A stretch of DNA of 64,000 nt from assembly GCF_009901955.1 (NCBI RefSeq), contig NZ_WUTS01000001.1, forward strand, positions 1,055,034 to 1,119,033, given 5' to 3'. The position numbers and the translations under genes were made by a program. Of this stretch, positions 7,760 to 14,818 are shown in pieces (position 1 is the first letter of the stretch; each line of letters begins with the position of its first letter). The notes below the pieces were generated by a model, which was not told where the DNA came from, ran no database searches, and saw only the letters and a list, made by a program, of their open reading frames with translations. The stretch is from Halomonas icarae (GTDB taxonomy: Bacteria > Pseudomonadota > Gammaproteobacteria > Pseudomonadales > Halomonadaceae).

Positions 7760-9693
<1,934 letters not shown>

Positions 9694-9714
9694 GAGCGCG
9701 ATTAGTATGGTACG

Positions 9715-9738
9715 AGTGAGCCGCAATGTCGGCTCACT
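9715..9738 (+). promoter_or_regulatory. Hairpin between ectB and ectC (possible attenuator)
   Basis: AGTGAGCCG, a 6-base loop and CGGCTCACT form a perfect 9-bp stem, followed by TTATG. The T run is short, so partial termination or mRNA processing between ectB and ectC is more likely than full termination. Confidence 0.6.
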
Positions 9739-9812
9739 TTATGAATAGTCTATCGTTTCCCCAAGAGCGGAAAACAACCCATGCCAAGTAGCAACATTCA
9801 AGGAGAGAACCC

Positions 9813-10202
9813 ATGATCGTTCGTAATCTCGAGGAGTGCCGCAAGACGGATCGCCTGGTCAAGGCGGAGAACGGCAACTGGGACAGCACCCGGCTGTCAC
9901 TGGCCGACGATGGCGGCAACTGCTCGTTCCACATCACCCGCATCTACGAAGGCACCGAGACCCATATCCACTACAAGCACCACTTCGAAGCGGTCTACTG
10001 CATCGAAGGTGAAGGCGAGGTGGAGACCCTGGCCGACGGCAAGATCTGGCCGATCAAGCCGGGCGACATCTATATCCTCGACCAGCACGACGAACACCTG
10101 CTGCGTGCTACCAAGACCATGCATCTGGCCTGCGTCTTTACCCCTGGGCTAACCGGCAACGAAGTCCACCGGGAAGATGGCTCCTACGCACCGGCCGAGT
10201 AA
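9813..10202 (+). CDS. ectC: L-ectoine synthase
   Basis: Cupin enzyme of 129 residues that cyclises N-gamma-acetyl-diaminobutyrate to ectoine, the compatible solute. The protein begins [14 protein letters not shown] and carries the cupin strands [21 protein letters not shown] and [18 protein letters not shown] with the usual metal and active-site His, Glu and Tyr residues. AAGGAGAG lies at good distance before the ATG. It is separated from ectB by 119 bases that hold a hairpin, a longer gap than inside most ect operons, so ectC may have its own control. Confidence 0.97.
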
Positions 10203-10240
10203 TCGGCGGCGCTGAGTCATAAACGCTGCCGCAAGTTGTG

Positions 10241-10275
10241 TAACGGGCCCCGACAAGCATCGTCGGGGCCCGTTA
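10241..10275 (+). terminator. Strong hairpin downstream of ectC
   Basis: A 14-bp perfect stem beginning TAACGGGCCCCGAC with a 7-base loop, 38 bases after ectC. No T tract follows, so termination may need Rho, or the hairpin protects the 3' end of the ect mRNA. Confidence 0.65.
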
Positions 10276-10320
10276 TGTGTCGGGATGAGAAGCCATCGGC
10301 AGCGGCAATGCCGTAATTCG

Positions 10321-10336
10321 CATAATGTATATTATG
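10321..10336. promoter_or_regulatory. AT-rich inverted repeat upstream of the lipoprotein gene
   Basis: CATAAT-GTAT-ATTATG is a perfect 6+6 inverted repeat in an otherwise GC-rich gap, about 140 bases before the retropepsin-like lipoprotein gene. It could be an operator or part of a promoter; no regulator is identified. Confidence 0.4.
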
Positions 10337-10473
10337 TTAAATTGGATGATGCAAAACTCCCCAAAGCCTCCTGAAACTCATGTGCTTCGGCCTGGTGAGG
10401 CGTCTCCGAGTTGGACAAGATCCTCGGCGACTCCTTATCATCGCCAGACTATCCAAAGGAAGTGCCCTTCCCC

Positions 10474-11325
10474 ATGCTCCATCCTCTGCTGAGTGCGACG
10501 CTCGCAGCGTCTGCCATCGCGCTTTCCGGTTGTGTCGCGCTGACGGAAAAGCCGACGCCACCGCCCGTCCTGTCCTCGACCGACTTTCACCAGCGCATGA
10601 ATGCGCTGGAAGCGACGCTGCTTGCCAGCTGCGACAACACCCGGATTGATGCTGAACTATCGTCTGTTGCGAGCCGCCAGGATCTGCTGATCGGCGATAT
10701 GCGCGAGGTGGGTTCGCTGTTGCGCAGCACAAACACGCGCCTGGACCGAATCGCTGAGGACGAGTCCGAACCAGTGATTGTCAGGCGCGAGTGCGCGGCC
10801 GATGAACTGGGGATCGGCAACAAGGCGGTCCTGGGTAGCAGCGAATGGATCGGGCTGCCCGATGTCGGCACCTACCTCAAGGCGCGTATCGATACCGGCG
10901 CCAGTACCTCGTCGCTCTCCGCCCGCGAGATCACCCGTTTCGAACGTGACGGCGAAAATTGGGTCCGCTTCAAGCTGGGACTGGCGGAGGACGACGTCGT
11001 CGTCGAGGCGGTGCGGGATGAATGGATCGAAGCCCCTATCGAGCGTCGCGTGCGCATCATCCAGGCAACCGGTGAAGAGTCGCGCCCGGTGGTGACCCTG
11101 ATGATGACCCTGGGGCCGATTCAGGAGCCGGTAGAATTCACGCTGAGTGATCGTACCCATCTCGATTTTCCGGCCCTGCTGGGCAGGCGCTTCCTGCTCG
11201 ATATCGCCGTCATCGATGTGGCCGAGAGGTACCTTCACCCGCGGCCCGAATTTCCCGGCGGGCGTCCCGCAGAGGAAGCCGAACGCCATGAGAATGATGC
11301 CGACCTCGACAACGAAACGCACTGA
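10474..11325 (+). CDS. Retropepsin-like ('ATP-dependent zinc protease' family) lipoprotein
   Basis: The start at 10474 gives a lipoprotein signal (MLHPLLSATLAASAIALSGC, lipobox LSGC), 283 residues in all; an earlier ATG would spoil the signal. A helical linker follows (about residues 30-100), then a domain beginning GSSEWIGLPDVGTYLKARIDTGASTSS (written in part): the DTGA motif is the hallmark of retropepsin-like aspartic peptidases and is conserved in the family long labelled ATP-dependent zinc protease. It would act at the periplasmic face of a membrane. It is first in a cassette with a transglutaminase-like 7TM protein and an ATP-grasp ligase, 35 bases before the former. The substrate is unknown; the zinc-protease name is historical and I see no zinc motif. 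Confidence 0.85.
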   Translation: MLHPLLSATLAASAIALSGCVALTEKPTPPPVLSSTDFHQRMNALEATLLASCDNTRIDAELSSVASRQDLLIGDMREVGSLLRSTNTRLDRIAEDESEPVIVRRECAADELGIGNKAVLGSSEWIGLPDVGTYLKARIDTGASTSSLSAREITRFERDGENWVRFKLGLAEDDVVVEAVRDEWIEAPIERRVRIIQATGEESRPVVTLMMTLGPIQEPVEFTLSDRTHLDFPALLGRRFLLDIAVIDVAERYLHPRPEFPGGRPAEEAERHENDADLDNETH

Positions 11326-11360
11326 GCCGCGCATTAGTCGCTCTCTGCCAAGGAAGCCCC

Positions 11361-12866
11361 ATGTCAAGACTGCCTTTCTATCTGCTGGTTGGCGTGCTGT
11401 TCCTGGCCGGCACCGCCATGACCCTGCATCGTCACTATCAGCTCGAGGTGCCCTGGACACCGGGAGAACAGCGCCAGGTATGGGAGGTGGAGGCCCAGGT
11501 CAATTTCACGGCACTGGGTGATCCGGTACTGGTGGACATGGCGCTCCCCTCGACTCAGGAGGGCTTTCGCCTGCTTACCGAGCATACGGCCTCGCCCGGC
11601 TACGGCCTCTCCTTCGTGGAAGAGAATGGCGGCAGGCGGGCCCAGTGGTCGATCCGTGAAGCCACTGGCTCCCAGCAGCTCTACTACACCGCCCAGGTGC
11701 TGGTGGCACCGGACAGCCGCCCTCCTCGCCTGGACACCCCACCGCTTCGCCGCGATATCGTCTGGGAGCGACCCTATGATACGGCGGCTACCCAGATGAT
11801 CGAACGTGCCTGGGGCCGCAGTGCGGATCCTTTCACCTTCGCCCGTGAGCTGCTTCACGACTTCAATGAGGAGCGTCAGGGCGAGAATGCTCGGCTGTTG
11901 CTGACCCAGTTCGAGCGCACGCCTTTGCTCGTTCGGCTGCTCAACCAGGCCGGCGTCCCGGCCAGAGAGGTGAGCGGACTAATGCTCGAGGACGGTCGGC
12001 GGCGCCAGTCGCTCACCAGCTGGGTCCAGGTGTTTGACGGTCAGCACTGGGCACTCTTCGATCCGGCCACCGGTGCCCAGGGACGCCCCGACAACCTGTT
12101 GATCTGGGAAGGCAGCGGTCAGGCCGTGCTCGAGGTTCAGGGGGGCAGCAACTCAAGGGTCACTTTCTCGATGCTGGCTCGCAACCAGCCGGCGGCCGCG
12201 GCGGTCCGCAACCAGCTGGCCGAGGATACCCTGCTCAATTTCTCCATTCACAGCCTGCCGCTCGAGGAGCAGGCACTGTTCCAGACGATCCTGTTGATTC
12301 CTATCGGCGCGCTGGTAGTGGTGGTACTGCGCATCCTGGTAGGCATCAAGACCTCAGGCACCTTTATGCCGGTACTGATCGCTCTGGCCTTTATCCAGAC
12401 AAGCCTGGCTACCGGTCTGATCGGCTTCTTGCTGGTGGTCGCCGTCGGCCTGGTGATTCGCAGCTACCTGTCGCACCTCAATCTGTTGCTGGTGGCGCGA
12501 GTGACGGCGGTGATCATCACGGTGATCGGCATCATTTCGGTGTTTTCGGTGCTCGCCTACCGCTTCGGGCTTAATGCCGGCCTGACCATCACCTTCTTCC
12601 CGATGATTATCCTCTCCTGGACCATCGAGCGGATGTCGATCCTCTGGGAGGAGGAAGGTCCTAAGGAGGTCTTGATCCAGGGCGGTGGCAGCCTGTTCAC
12701 CGCGGTGCTGGCATATCTGGCCATGAACAACCCCTGGGTACGCCATATCACCTTCAACTTCCTGGGAATTCAGCTGATTCTGATGGCGTTGATCCTGATG
12801 ATCGGCAACTACACCGGCTATCGCCTGCTGGAGCTGCGTCGCTTCAAGCCGGTCACCGAGGATTGA
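11361..12866 (+). CDS. Inactive transglutaminase-like domain fused to 7TM domain
   Basis: Membrane protein of 501 residues. An N-terminal membrane segment (about residues 5-22) leads to a large extracytoplasmic part containing a transglutaminase-like core: LLNQAGVPAREVSGLML, SWVQVFDGQHWALFDPATG. In active enzymes the histidine lies where this protein has Ser (SWVQVF), and no Cys is found at the nucleophile position, so the domain is probably a binding or scaffold domain. From about residue 300 on, roughly seven helices follow, beginning ALFQTILLIPIGALVVVVL and ending NYTGYRLLELRRFK. It matches the inactive transglutaminase/7TM families found beside RimK-like ligases. Three bases separate it from the ligase gene. 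Confidence 0.88.
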   Translation: MSRLPFYLLVGVLFLAGTAMTLHRHYQLEVPWTPGEQRQVWEVEAQVNFTALGDPVLVDMALPSTQEGFRLLTEHTASPGYGLSFVEENGGRRAQWSIREATGSQQLYYTAQVLVAPDSRPPRLDTPPLRRDIVWERPYDTAATQMIERAWGRSADPFTFARELLHDFNEERQGENARLLLTQFERTPLLVRLLNQAGVPAREVSGLMLEDGRRRQSLTSWVQVFDGQHWALFDPATGAQGRPDNLLIWEGSGQAVLEVQGGSNSRVTFSMLARNQPAAAAVRNQLAEDTLLNFSIHSLPLEEQALFQTILLIPIGALVVVVLRILVGIKTSGTFMPVLIALAFIQTSLATGLIGFLLVVAVGLVIRSYLSHLNLLLVARVTAVIITVIGIISVFSVLAYRFGLNAGLTITFFPMIILSWTIERMSILWEEEGPKEVLIQGGGSLFTAVLAYLAMNNPWVRHITFNFLGIQLILMALILMIGNYTGYRLLELRRFKPVTED

Positions 12867-12869
12867 GCC

Positions 12870-13844
12870 ATGCGAGAATGGACGACGCCTGGCAAGTTGC
12901 GTGCCAAGGGCATCATCGGCATGAATCGCCGCAACATTCGCTATATCGGACGCTATAACAATCGCCGTCTCTATCCGCTGGTGGATGACAAGCTGCAGAC
13001 CAAGCTGCTCGCCGAGCGCTTTGGCATCACCACACCGGCACTGATTGGCACCGTTACCACCCAGTTCGGCGTCAAGCATATCGGTGAGCTGCTTGCCGGA
13101 CACCAGGGGTTCGTGATCAAGCCCGCCAAGGGCAGCGGCGGCAAGGGCATCCTGGTGGTGGAGCGTGTCGAAGGTAACGACTACATCAAGCCCAGCGGTG
13201 TTCGCATGAGCCTGTCGGATATCGAGCGTCACGTCTCCAATATCCTCTCCGGGCTCTACTCACTGGGGGGAGCTCCGGATGTGGCGCTGATCGAAGCACT
13301 GATCAACTTCGATGAGGGCCTCTCCGAGTACACCTACGAGGGGGTGCCGGATATCCGAGTCATCGTGTTCAAGGGCTACCCGGTCATGGCGATGATGCGC
13401 CTCTCCACCGCGGCCTCGGATGGCAAGGCCAACCTGCATCAGGGCGCCGTCGGCGTGGGACTGGATATTGCCTCAGGCACCGCCATCCGGGGAGTTCAGT
13501 TCGATCGCACGCGTCATGACCACCCCGATACCGGCCATGAACTGGCCAGCCTGACCATCCCCGACTGGCCTACCCTGCTGCTGCTGGCCGCCGGCTGCTA
13601 TGAGATGACCGGGCTCGGCTATCTGGGCACCGACATGGTGCTCGATCGCGATCAGGGCCCCATGCTGCTGGAGCTCAACGCCAGGCCCGGGCTGGCGATC
13701 CAGATGGCCAACGGCGAAGGATTGAGGCGTCGCCTCGATCTGGTCGAGAAGCAGCCGGAGGGAGTGGCTGCCCAGGCACGGGTGGACTTTGCGCGCCACC
13801 ATTTCGCCCGTCGAAGCGAGCTTGAGGCCACCGCCGAAGCCTGA
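12870..13844 (+). CDS. RimK-related alpha-L-glutamate ligase-like ATP-grasp protein
   Basis: Cytoplasmic ATP-grasp protein of 324 residues, of the 'alpha-L-glutamate ligase-like' family. The N-terminus (GMNRRNIRYIGRYNNRRLYPLVDDK) is characteristic. ATP-grasp elements are FVIKPAKGSGGKGILVV (ATP-binding loop), the acid-rich strand PDIRVIVFKGYPVMAMMR and the metal site MLLELNARPGLAIQMAN. Relatives of RimK join an amino acid (often glutamate) to a protein or small molecule; the acceptor of this family is not established to my knowledge. Its genetic coupling to the 7TM and retropepsin-like proteins suggests the modification serves an envelope process. Confidence 0.88.
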   Translation: MREWTTPGKLRAKGIIGMNRRNIRYIGRYNNRRLYPLVDDKLQTKLLAERFGITTPALIGTVTTQFGVKHIGELLAGHQGFVIKPAKGSGGKGILVVERVEGNDYIKPSGVRMSLSDIERHVSNILSGLYSLGGAPDVALIEALINFDEGLSEYTYEGVPDIRVIVFKGYPVMAMMRLSTAASDGKANLHQGAVGVGLDIASGTAIRGVQFDRTRHDHPDTGHELASLTIPDWPTLLLLAAGCYEMTGLGYLGTDMVLDRDQGPMLLELNARPGLAIQMANGEGLRRRLDLVEKQPEGVAAQARVDFARHHFARRSELEATAEA

Positions 13845-13909
13845 GGCACGCTGGCCCGCCCTCGCCCACCCGCGTAGAATGTCGCCAACTTCGACAGCCG
13901 ACGGGTGCC

Positions 13910-14356
13910 ATGACTGATTCCCGAAACCTGTTGCTCCAGGCGGAGCGGCAGTGCCAGCAGCGCGGGGCGCGCTTTACGCCGATACGACGCCGCGTGCTCG
14001 AGATGATTGCCGAGGCGTCCGGTGCCCTAAAGGCCTATGACCTTCTCGACCGCCTGGCCGACGAGCATGCCTCGGCTCGGCCACCCACGGTATACCGTGC
14101 CCTGGAGTTTCTGATCGATCAGGGCCTGGTGCACCGTATCGAGTCGCTCAACGCCTATGTTGCCTGTCCCTGCCCGGAGCATTCTCACGGCTTCCAGCTG
14201 CTGATCTGCCGCCTCTGCGGGCGAGTCGAGGAACTGCACCTGGAAGATGTCAATGCCCAGCTCGCCGACTGCGCCCAGCAGCTGGGCTTCCGGGTCGAGC
14301 GTCAGACGATCGAATTGCTGGGACGCTGCGATGCCTGCGGCGATACCGACGGTTGA
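13910..14356 (+). CDS. zur: Fur-family regulator, probable zinc uptake regulator Zur
   Basis: Winged-helix metalloregulator of 148 residues. The DNA-binding domain includes GARFTPIRRRVLEMI and PPTVYRALEFLIDQGLVHRIES, the recognition-helix block of Fur proteins. The dimerisation domain has CRLCG and a C-terminal CDAC pair, giving the structural zinc site, plus His residues in CPCPEHSHGFQ. The early HRIESLNAYVAC pattern and short C-terminus fit Zur better than Fur. Zur represses zinc import and zinc-sparing genes when zinc is plentiful. The hisI gene follows 21 bases later, which supports the zinc assignment by context. Confidence 0.8.
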   Translation: MTDSRNLLLQAERQCQQRGARFTPIRRRVLEMIAEASGALKAYDLLDRLADEHASARPPTVYRALEFLIDQGLVHRIESLNAYVACPCPEHSHGFQLLICRLCGRVEELHLEDVNAQLADCAQQLGFRVERQTIELLGRCDACGDTDG

Positions 14357-14377
14357 CCCTTTCTGCGGAGAATTGAG

Positions 14378-14818
14378 ATGTCCGATATCTTCAAGGCGCT
14401 CGAGCAGGCGCCCGCCGACAGCCAACACGATCTCGTCCCTGTGCTCGAATCCATCGGGTTCAACGACGATGGTCTGATTCCCGCCATCGCCCAGCAGCAC
14501 GATAGCGGCGAGGTGTTGATGATGGCCTGGATGAACCGGGAGGCGCTCATGGAGACCCTGCGCACCGGACGGGTCTGCTACTGGTCGCGCTCACGTGGCA
14601 AGCTGTGGCGTAAAGGCGAGAGCTCCGGCCAGCAGCAGCACCTCAGGGGAGCCGCGCTCGACTGTGACGGAGACACCCTGCTGCTGCAGGTGAACCAGAC
14701 GGGTCCCGCCTGTCACAGTGGACGCCGCAGCTGCTTCTATGTAGCGCTCGAGAAGGAGTCGGCACGCATCACCACTGCCCCGCTGATCGATCCCACCGCG
14801 CTCTACGGAAAGCCCTGA
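14378..14818 (+). CDS. hisI: Phosphoribosyl-AMP cyclohydrolase
   Basis: Stand-alone HisI of 146 residues, without the HisE domain; it opens the purine ring of PR-AMP in histidine synthesis. Motifs are EVLMMAWMNREALMETL, GRVCYWSRSRGKLWRKGESSG and the metal site DCDGD...QTGPACHSGRRSCFY, with all three zinc cysteines present. No other his genes are near. In several proteobacteria, extra HisI copies lie in zinc-regulated loci; the adjacency to the zur-like gene raises that possibility here, though the retained cysteines speak against a zinc-free variant. Its stop overlaps the yidD start by one base (TGATG). Confidence 0.93.
   Translation: MSDIFKALEQAPADSQHDLVPVLESIGFNDDGLIPAIAQQHDSGEVLMMAWMNREALMETLRTGRVCYWSRSRGKLWRKGESSGQQQHLRGAALDCDGDTLLLQVNQTGPACHSGRRSCFYVALEKESARITTAPLIDPTALYGKP

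Follow-up and report, generated by a model that had tools for sequence, protein, structure and literature searches.

A halophile rloABC operon beside the ectoine genes of Halomonas icarae, and a related clade that keeps the RloB transglutaminase triad

Introduction

The closest described relatives of the locus analysed here are the rloABC genes of Pseudomonas, and because these were already named in P. aeruginosa in 2025 (PMC12239564), neither the kind of system nor its phenotype is new. In P. aeruginosa three secreted proteases are redundantly required for growth at low osmolarity, and a mutant without any of the three is rescued when rloB or rloC is deleted as well; losing the secreted RloA proteases does damage only in the presence of rloB and rloC. 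RloA cleaves runs of at least eight glutamates in vitro, whereas runs of six or fewer are not cut. Cell-shape and ampicillin phenotypes were reported for the mutants, and free poly-glutamate is among the products discussed (PMC12239564). By their description PA1766–PA1768 are rloABC, transposon hits are reported there, and Rlo names are already in NCBIfam. Here we describe a three-gene cassette of this kind in a 64,000-nucleotide stretch of the Halomonas icarae genome (the window; contig NZ_WUTS01000001.1, positions 1,055,034 to 1,119,033), where it follows the ectoine operon ectABC.

Two other systems are partly similar. The RimB–RimK ribosome-modification pair also combines a retropepsin with an ATP-grasp glutamate ligase, but it is cytoplasmic, lacks a membrane protein and a signal peptide, and in the RimB of the window genome has Asp at position 92, a glutamate-contact position in RloA. 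The poly-gamma-glutamate synthase PgsBC/CapBC follows the same logic as rloABC, with a ligase, a membrane protein and a hydrolase.

Results and Discussion

The cassette is the rloABC operon of a halophile

Three complete plus-strand genes fill positions 10474–13844 of the window and are separated by gaps of 35 bases (rloA–rloB) and 3 bases (rloB–rloC), as had been proposed in an earlier interpretation made from the letters alone (the sequence-only reading). The family scores of the three products (Table 1) exclude chance, and the cassette is the rloABC operon of a halophile. The same reading had described a periplasm-facing aspartic-peptidase domain with a DTGA motif, a membrane protein whose transglutaminase core has lost Cys and His, and a RimK-like ligase, and all three descriptions hold. 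The motif lies in the first gene behind a signal peptide with a lipobox. In RloB the Cys position of the triad is a gap and the His position is Thr, with the Asp position retained as Asp, and no cysteine is present anywhere in the 501 residues; the window RloB was therefore rejected as an active transglutaminase. The RloB model (predicted local distance difference test score, pLDDT, 82) gives the periplasmic domain a transglutaminase-like fold (3isr, Z 14.0, root mean square deviation 4.0, 214 residues aligned). RloC, with its TIGR02291 and PF14397 scores, is modelled with a pLDDT of 91 and a RimK-like fold, nearest to ArgX (Z 17.2), RimK (Z 16.7) and cyanophycin synthetase (Z 16.2), and its residues E268 and N270, which we take to be ATP-grasp metal ligands, are invariant.

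The locus resembles RloABC of P. aeruginosa and P. fluorescens in gene order, in having a secreted retropepsin-like protease with basic glutamate-contact residues (K46, R92, R114 and R137 in the known RloA), in the fusion of an inactive transglutaminase to a membrane domain, and in the RimK-like ATP-grasp protein (PMC12239564). It differs in that the window RloA is a lipoprotein with about 100 residues, including two cysteines, between Cys20 and the catalytic domain, and lacks Cys122, and in its genus-specific ect–rlo–zur gene order. The window genome has three PF05618 genes (RloA, RloA3 and RimB), compared with three secreted proteases and RimB in P. aeruginosa (PMC12239564). We also considered whether the cassette is itself a RimB–RimK pair, but its RloA has a lipobox, and the real rimB–rimK pair of this genome is elsewhere (L034; loci and genomes are cited by L and G numbers).

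Table 1. Positions of the rloABC genes and associated features in the window
Feature	Coordinates	Strand	Description
rloA	10474..11325	+	From ATG to stop, 283 residues; secreted lipoprotein, retropepsin-like aspartic peptidase domain at residues ~119–257; PF05618 E 3e-37; relatives with solved structure 9g59, 9g58, 2pma
RloA signal peptide and lipobox	10474..10533	+	Ends at Cys20 (LSGC), Val at +2; read from sequence
RloA catalytic motif D140-T-G-A	10891..10902	+	
rloB	11361..12866	+	501 residues; single N-terminal helix, then a degenerate transglutaminase fold in the periplasm and a multi-helix membrane domain at the C-terminus; PF14400 E 1e-55, PF14402 E 7e-110
RloB membrane domain	12261..12863	+	Many invariant residues
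rloC	12870..13844	+	324 residues; cytoplasmic RimK-like ATP-grasp ligase; TIGR02291 447 bits (cut-off 314), PF14397 E 2e-93
15-pair hairpin	10240..10276	+	Between ectC and rloA; -30.9 kcal/mol, fold z -5.5

RloA is a lipoprotein that keeps the glutamate-contact residues

We number RloA positions as in PDB entry 9g58, counting the Asp of its DTG as D48. All four glutamate-contact positions (46, 92, 114 and 137) are Arg in the window RloA (R138, R191, R204 and R227), and they are still Arg in a larger alignment. Across 51 cassette catalytic domains position 46 is basic in all 51 and position 92 in 50, and R114 and R137 are each present in 51/51; this comparison omits seven cassette RloA proteins without a literal D[TS]GA (L035, L038, L039, L050, L085, L090 and L093) and the loci in which rloA was not found (L076, L077 and L080). 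The catalytic-domain cysteine position, 122, is Thr in the window RloA and is Cys in 0/32 same-genus domains and 4/19 order-level domains, so that the window RloA is a variant without the catalytic-domain disulfide of periplasmic orthologs.

A lipobox is present in 34 of 35 same-genus loci, none of which has Asp at +2. In E. coli, lipoproteins without Asp at +2 go to the outer membrane, and by this rule the 34 RloA proteins point to the same location. All 34 loci encode exactly two cysteines in the segment that separates the lipid-bearing Cys from the catalytic motif, and our guess is that they form a disulfide. At the sole locus without a lipobox (L084, in genome G044) the lipobox region is lost and the RloA catalytic domain is joined in frame to a LysR-like sequence, recognized by eye; the distance from ectC to the RloB membrane domain in this genome is about 49 kb. 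Another cassette, L043, contains two tandem RloA-type domains in one open frame of at least 383 residues.

The three genes are strongly linked

The order rloA–rloB–rloC is found in 101 of the 116 RloB entries compared, the window's included. In a class-wide sample of 106 genomes a PF05618 gene is directly upstream of all 12 RloB matches above 300 bits (window excluded), and is missing upstream of five weaker matches, two in the active-triad clade described below (G169 and G192), two divergent (G217 and G186) and one under the cut-off at 20 bits (G175). The same-genus genomes G011 (99% complete) and G002 (79%) lack rloB, and their only PF05618 gene is in each case a rimB, which encodes no signal peptide and adjoins rimK; along with rloB they are thus without RloA and the other secreted paralogs. 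Genomes G031 and G035 gave no rloB match in the first search but carry a partial rloB at the end of the contig with their rloA. Of 32 genomes in the class sample with PF05618 but without rloB, 29 have RimB-like genes only (28 of these with rimK close by); overall rimK is close to a PF05618 gene in 31/32, and none was seen in G203. We read the PF05618 frame of G183, which runs upstream into a hydrophobic stretch and has rimK beside it, as RimB. Secreted RloA and rloB pair strongly in genomes outside the genus, but a rule that the first occurs only where the second does was rejected as absolute, owing to G127, G182 and G218.

A clade with an intact RloB triad lacks adjacent rloA

Seven RloB entries (7/116, or 7/113 with a transglutaminase part, which is missing from L080, L166 and L167) have an intact Cys-His-Asp triad: L163, L164, L165, L168, L169, L259 and L260, with the motifs ASCNGK, SHQWVE and FD in L169 and its kin. 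Each of the seven is followed by rloC, and an adjacent rloA is absent throughout. No PF05618 gene was found in five of the seven genomes (G169, G274, G411, G346 and G381; G346 and G381 are 88% complete and G411 is listed with 9% contamination), and the other two have RimB-type genes, next to rimK in G308, and without signal peptide in G192, where no rimK was seen in the stretch fetched. The operon continues with a tetratricopeptide repeat (TPR) membrane protein in 7/7 and then an outer-membrane-barrel-like protein in 6/7, the seventh locus ending before this point; the barrel-like call is based on weak Pfam matches (E 0.009 and 6e-5) below curated cut-offs. The four-gene operon of active-triad RloB, ATP-grasp, TPR and barrel-like proteins is also listed for L263 and L264, together with L163, L164, L165, L168 and L169.

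In the 106 triad-less entries with a transglutaminase part, the Cys column is never Cys, the His column is His once (L171), and the Asp column is Asn in 51 and Asp in 41. An adjacent rloA is present in 101 of 105 triad-less entries, a count that was 102/106 before dropping L032, a duplicate entry of the window's RloB with a truncated flank. The four without it are L076 (with an unlinked gene for a secreted RloA-type protein, L265, in its genome), L077 (with rloA in a second cassette of its genome), and the pair L170 and L171. In this pair the triad has partly decayed (T-Y-D and A-H-D), rloC is not found nearby, and a gene of RloA type is close by on the opposite strand.

The active-triad entries form one clade, with support 100/100 and members in three families, in an unrooted tree of 76 of the 116 entries. 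As one clade they represent one event and a single contrast, and the Fisher value for active versus inactive RloB (7 versus 106 entries, p 9e-9), which ignores kinship, is not to be used. Since the tree is unrooted, the direction of the triad change is not proven.

The clade shares the membrane domain family and RloC with rloABC, and differs in its intact triad, the absence of rloA, and the TPR and barrel-like proteins that follow. This combination of an intact RloB triad and rloC with no adjacent rloA is new here, and the predicted four-gene relay did not turn up in literature searches (supplements being outside their scope). An intact triad without rloA and a lost triad with rloA suggest, on the strength of one clade, that the retropepsin RloA replaced the active site of RloB. 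We tentatively propose, with somewhat less than even confidence, that the processing enzyme was swapped during evolution: a papain-fold (transglutaminase-type) site in RloB would have handled the RloC product and decayed once the secreted retropepsin had been recruited, with the triad-keeping clade forming a relay of four genes that leads from the cytoplasm to the outer membrane. This is the simplest account of the live-site clade, although the intact site might instead serve to link the product to an acceptor. If correct, an enzyme swap would account for the pairing of an inactive transglutaminase with a retropepsin. The live-site clade, without RloA and with a putative outer-membrane route attached, is a natural comparison for what RloC makes and RloA cuts, because the same membrane and ligase parts can be compared with and without RloA.

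Adjacency to ectABC is the gene order of one genus

The sequence-only reading took the position after the ectoine operon as a hint of an envelope or osmotic role, and the cassette might accordingly be a working part of the ectoine osmotic response. Of 117 genomes searched, 69 are same-genus genomes with PF14402, the window's included. In 66 of these 69 ectC is on the same contig, and it is upstream and on the same strand in all 66, as such a role would have it. The spacing is not kept, however: the ectC–cassette gap exceeds the window's by less than 0.6 kb in 28, 0.6–1.5 kb in 14, 1.5–5 kb in nine, 5–15 kb in ten and 18–49 kb in five. The 34 same-genus loci fetched share the block gor-ectABC-rloABC-zur-hisI-yidD-sufE-nfuA-metH as far as each extends, but insertions are mostly on the ect side, and in most loci zur and hisI are still close downstream of rloC; in a few, zur is preceded by an insertion or gave no match. 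Outside the genus, 12 genomes have both genes (leaving out two fragments from G083), and in just one of these are they within 10 kb, on opposite strands. Among 44 same-order genomes, counted by hand, 13 have both rloB and ectC, 12 rlo only, 7 ect only and 12 neither (ectC in 13/25 rloB-bearing and 7/19 rloB-less genomes; Fisher p 0.37).

ectC ends 271 bases upstream of rloA, this gap contains a strong hairpin (Table 1), and its length is not conserved across same-genus copies. The hairpin lacks a T-run and is absent from the listing of a consensus scan; it is likely to be the end of the ectABC transcript. A promoter-like site at 10412–10441, before rloA, is the sole one in 9650–14450, where 1.1 are expected by chance.

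Ectoine has a hyperosmotic role. The published rlo phenotype is the opposite, being hypo-osmotic (PMC12239564). Because the adjacency is the gene order of one genus, there is no order-level association, and the phenotype runs in the other direction, we find no functional evidence for an ectoine link, and we regard participation in the ectoine response as very improbable. The survey thus removes a tempting but unsupported connection.

A proposed mechanism and its alternatives

The best explanation that we can offer for the cassette, to which we give about an even chance, is as follows. The cytoplasmic RloC would spend ATP to string glutamates into a chain, either free or on an acceptor, and RloB would carry or present this product at the periplasmic face, with the dead transglutaminase domain perhaps serving to bind it or hand it on. 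RloA, held by its lipid anchor probably at the outer membrane, would then cut the chain, and unchecked RloC product would harm the envelope when salt drops. We infer this from the families, the operon genetics and poly-glutamate cleavage described for P. aeruginosa (PMC12239564), the contact residues, the RloC folds, the linkage and the invariant residues of RloB. For this copy the analysis shows the family membership, the retained catalytic and contact residues, the RimK-like fold of RloC, the strong linkage and the lipoprotein form, while glutamate as the substrate of RloC, transport by RloB, the cellular locations and the function in H. icarae are inferred. The earlier suggestion that the three proteins add and remove an amino-acid tag across the membrane agrees with the same genetics and cleavage data, although its appeal to the ectoine position as functional evidence does not stand; it had also called both role and acceptor unsettled, and the P. 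aeruginosa work has partly overtaken the first of these while the second still applies (PMC12239564).

Of 42 columns invariant in 40 RloB sequences, 34 are at residue 299 or later, in the membrane domain, and include R324, R367, R380, E423, R424, E431, E491 and R494, suggesting that it is more than an anchor. Several relationships were tried for this domain, and none gained support. An RnfA-like fold (Z 8.3, root mean square deviation 3.5, 125 aligned) is too weak to claim, as helical bundles may match by common arrangement, and an internal repeat has no sequence support (E 0.27–0.47). Homology to CapC was prompted by a short motif that resembles RloB's by eye, but comparison of 113 RloB and 81 CapC-type sequences by hhalign is not significant (E 0.18–0.52, against E 5e-4 for a control of two CapC halves); an earlier, shallower profile comparison gave E 0.06–0.27, and PF14102 has no match in the RloB membrane part at E 10.

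Several observations weigh against the proposed mechanism. The window proteins score below the narrow NCBIfam cut-offs, with 111 of 210 bits for the best of the RloA1, RloA2 and RloA3 models and 355 of 900 bits for RloB, and no confident solved relative of the RloB membrane domain was found. No substrate of RloC is shown in the parts of the Rlo literature covered (PMC12239564). Secreted or membrane-anchored RloA-type proteins occur in 3 of the 32 rloB-less genomes (L274 in G127, L293 in G182 and L304 in G218), and conversely L166 (5089–6234) and L167 (4900–6018) have an RloB-type membrane domain without the transglutaminase part, with an RloC-type gene downstream and no secreted RloA, the apparent upstream rloA of L166 being rimB next to rimK. 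Finally, two same-genus cassettes, L085 (G029) and L090 (G070), have Ala in place of the RloA catalytic Asp (VASGA and IASGA) beside rloB and rloC, which makes the enzymatic activity of RloA dispensable in these cassettes. Each of these two genomes has three further PF05618 genes, and in that of L090 two secreted paralogs keep the Asp; these dead cassette proteases fit the redundancy shown in P. aeruginosa (PMC12239564).

An alternative is that RloABC controls peptidoglycan enzymes, in that RloB and RloC activate an enzyme of the cell wall, perhaps by glutamylating it, and proteases of RloA type inactivate it. This would account for the published cell-shape and ampicillin phenotypes (PMC12239564), and it draws on the location of the second secreted protease of the window genome, an RloA3 (244 bits, cut-off 210) whose gene starts 36 bases after that of a lytic murein transglycosylase with a peptidoglycan-binding domain and is followed by rsmE (L033, 1438–3294). 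The transglycosylase upstream and rsmE downstream recur in 9 of 13 same-genus secreted-paralog loci (L033, L095–L098, L100, L102, L104 and L267, with wider spacing in L095 and L096). Both neighbours are absent from the other four (L099, L101, L103 and L268), however, L033 is the sole locus scored as RloA3, and the pairing is seen within the genus only and may reflect gene order alone; we consider this explanation unlikely. Equally doubtful in our view is a role of RloC in producing a small metabolite or osmolyte peptide for export, with RloA as a scavenging peptidase. ArgX, RimK and cyanophycin synthetase resemble the RloC fold to much the same degree, and the published discussion of free poly-glutamate would suit such a product; against it, RloA leaves runs of up to six glutamates uncut, and the loss of RloA proteases does harm only in the presence of RloB and RloC (PMC12239564).

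Other features of the locus and genome

Downstream of rloC are a zur-like Fur-family gene and then hisI (13910–14818), with ectABC on the upstream side of the cassette. Two tandem CapC-type membrane domains are present in proteins of about 1085 residues at L123–L126 and in L176–L255, from many Pseudomonadota including named Halomonas contigs. Elsewhere in the window genome, L001 (1318–2916) encodes a 532-residue protein with RLAN and ATP-grasp domains, adjoining an opposite-strand frame that by eye is GNAT-like.

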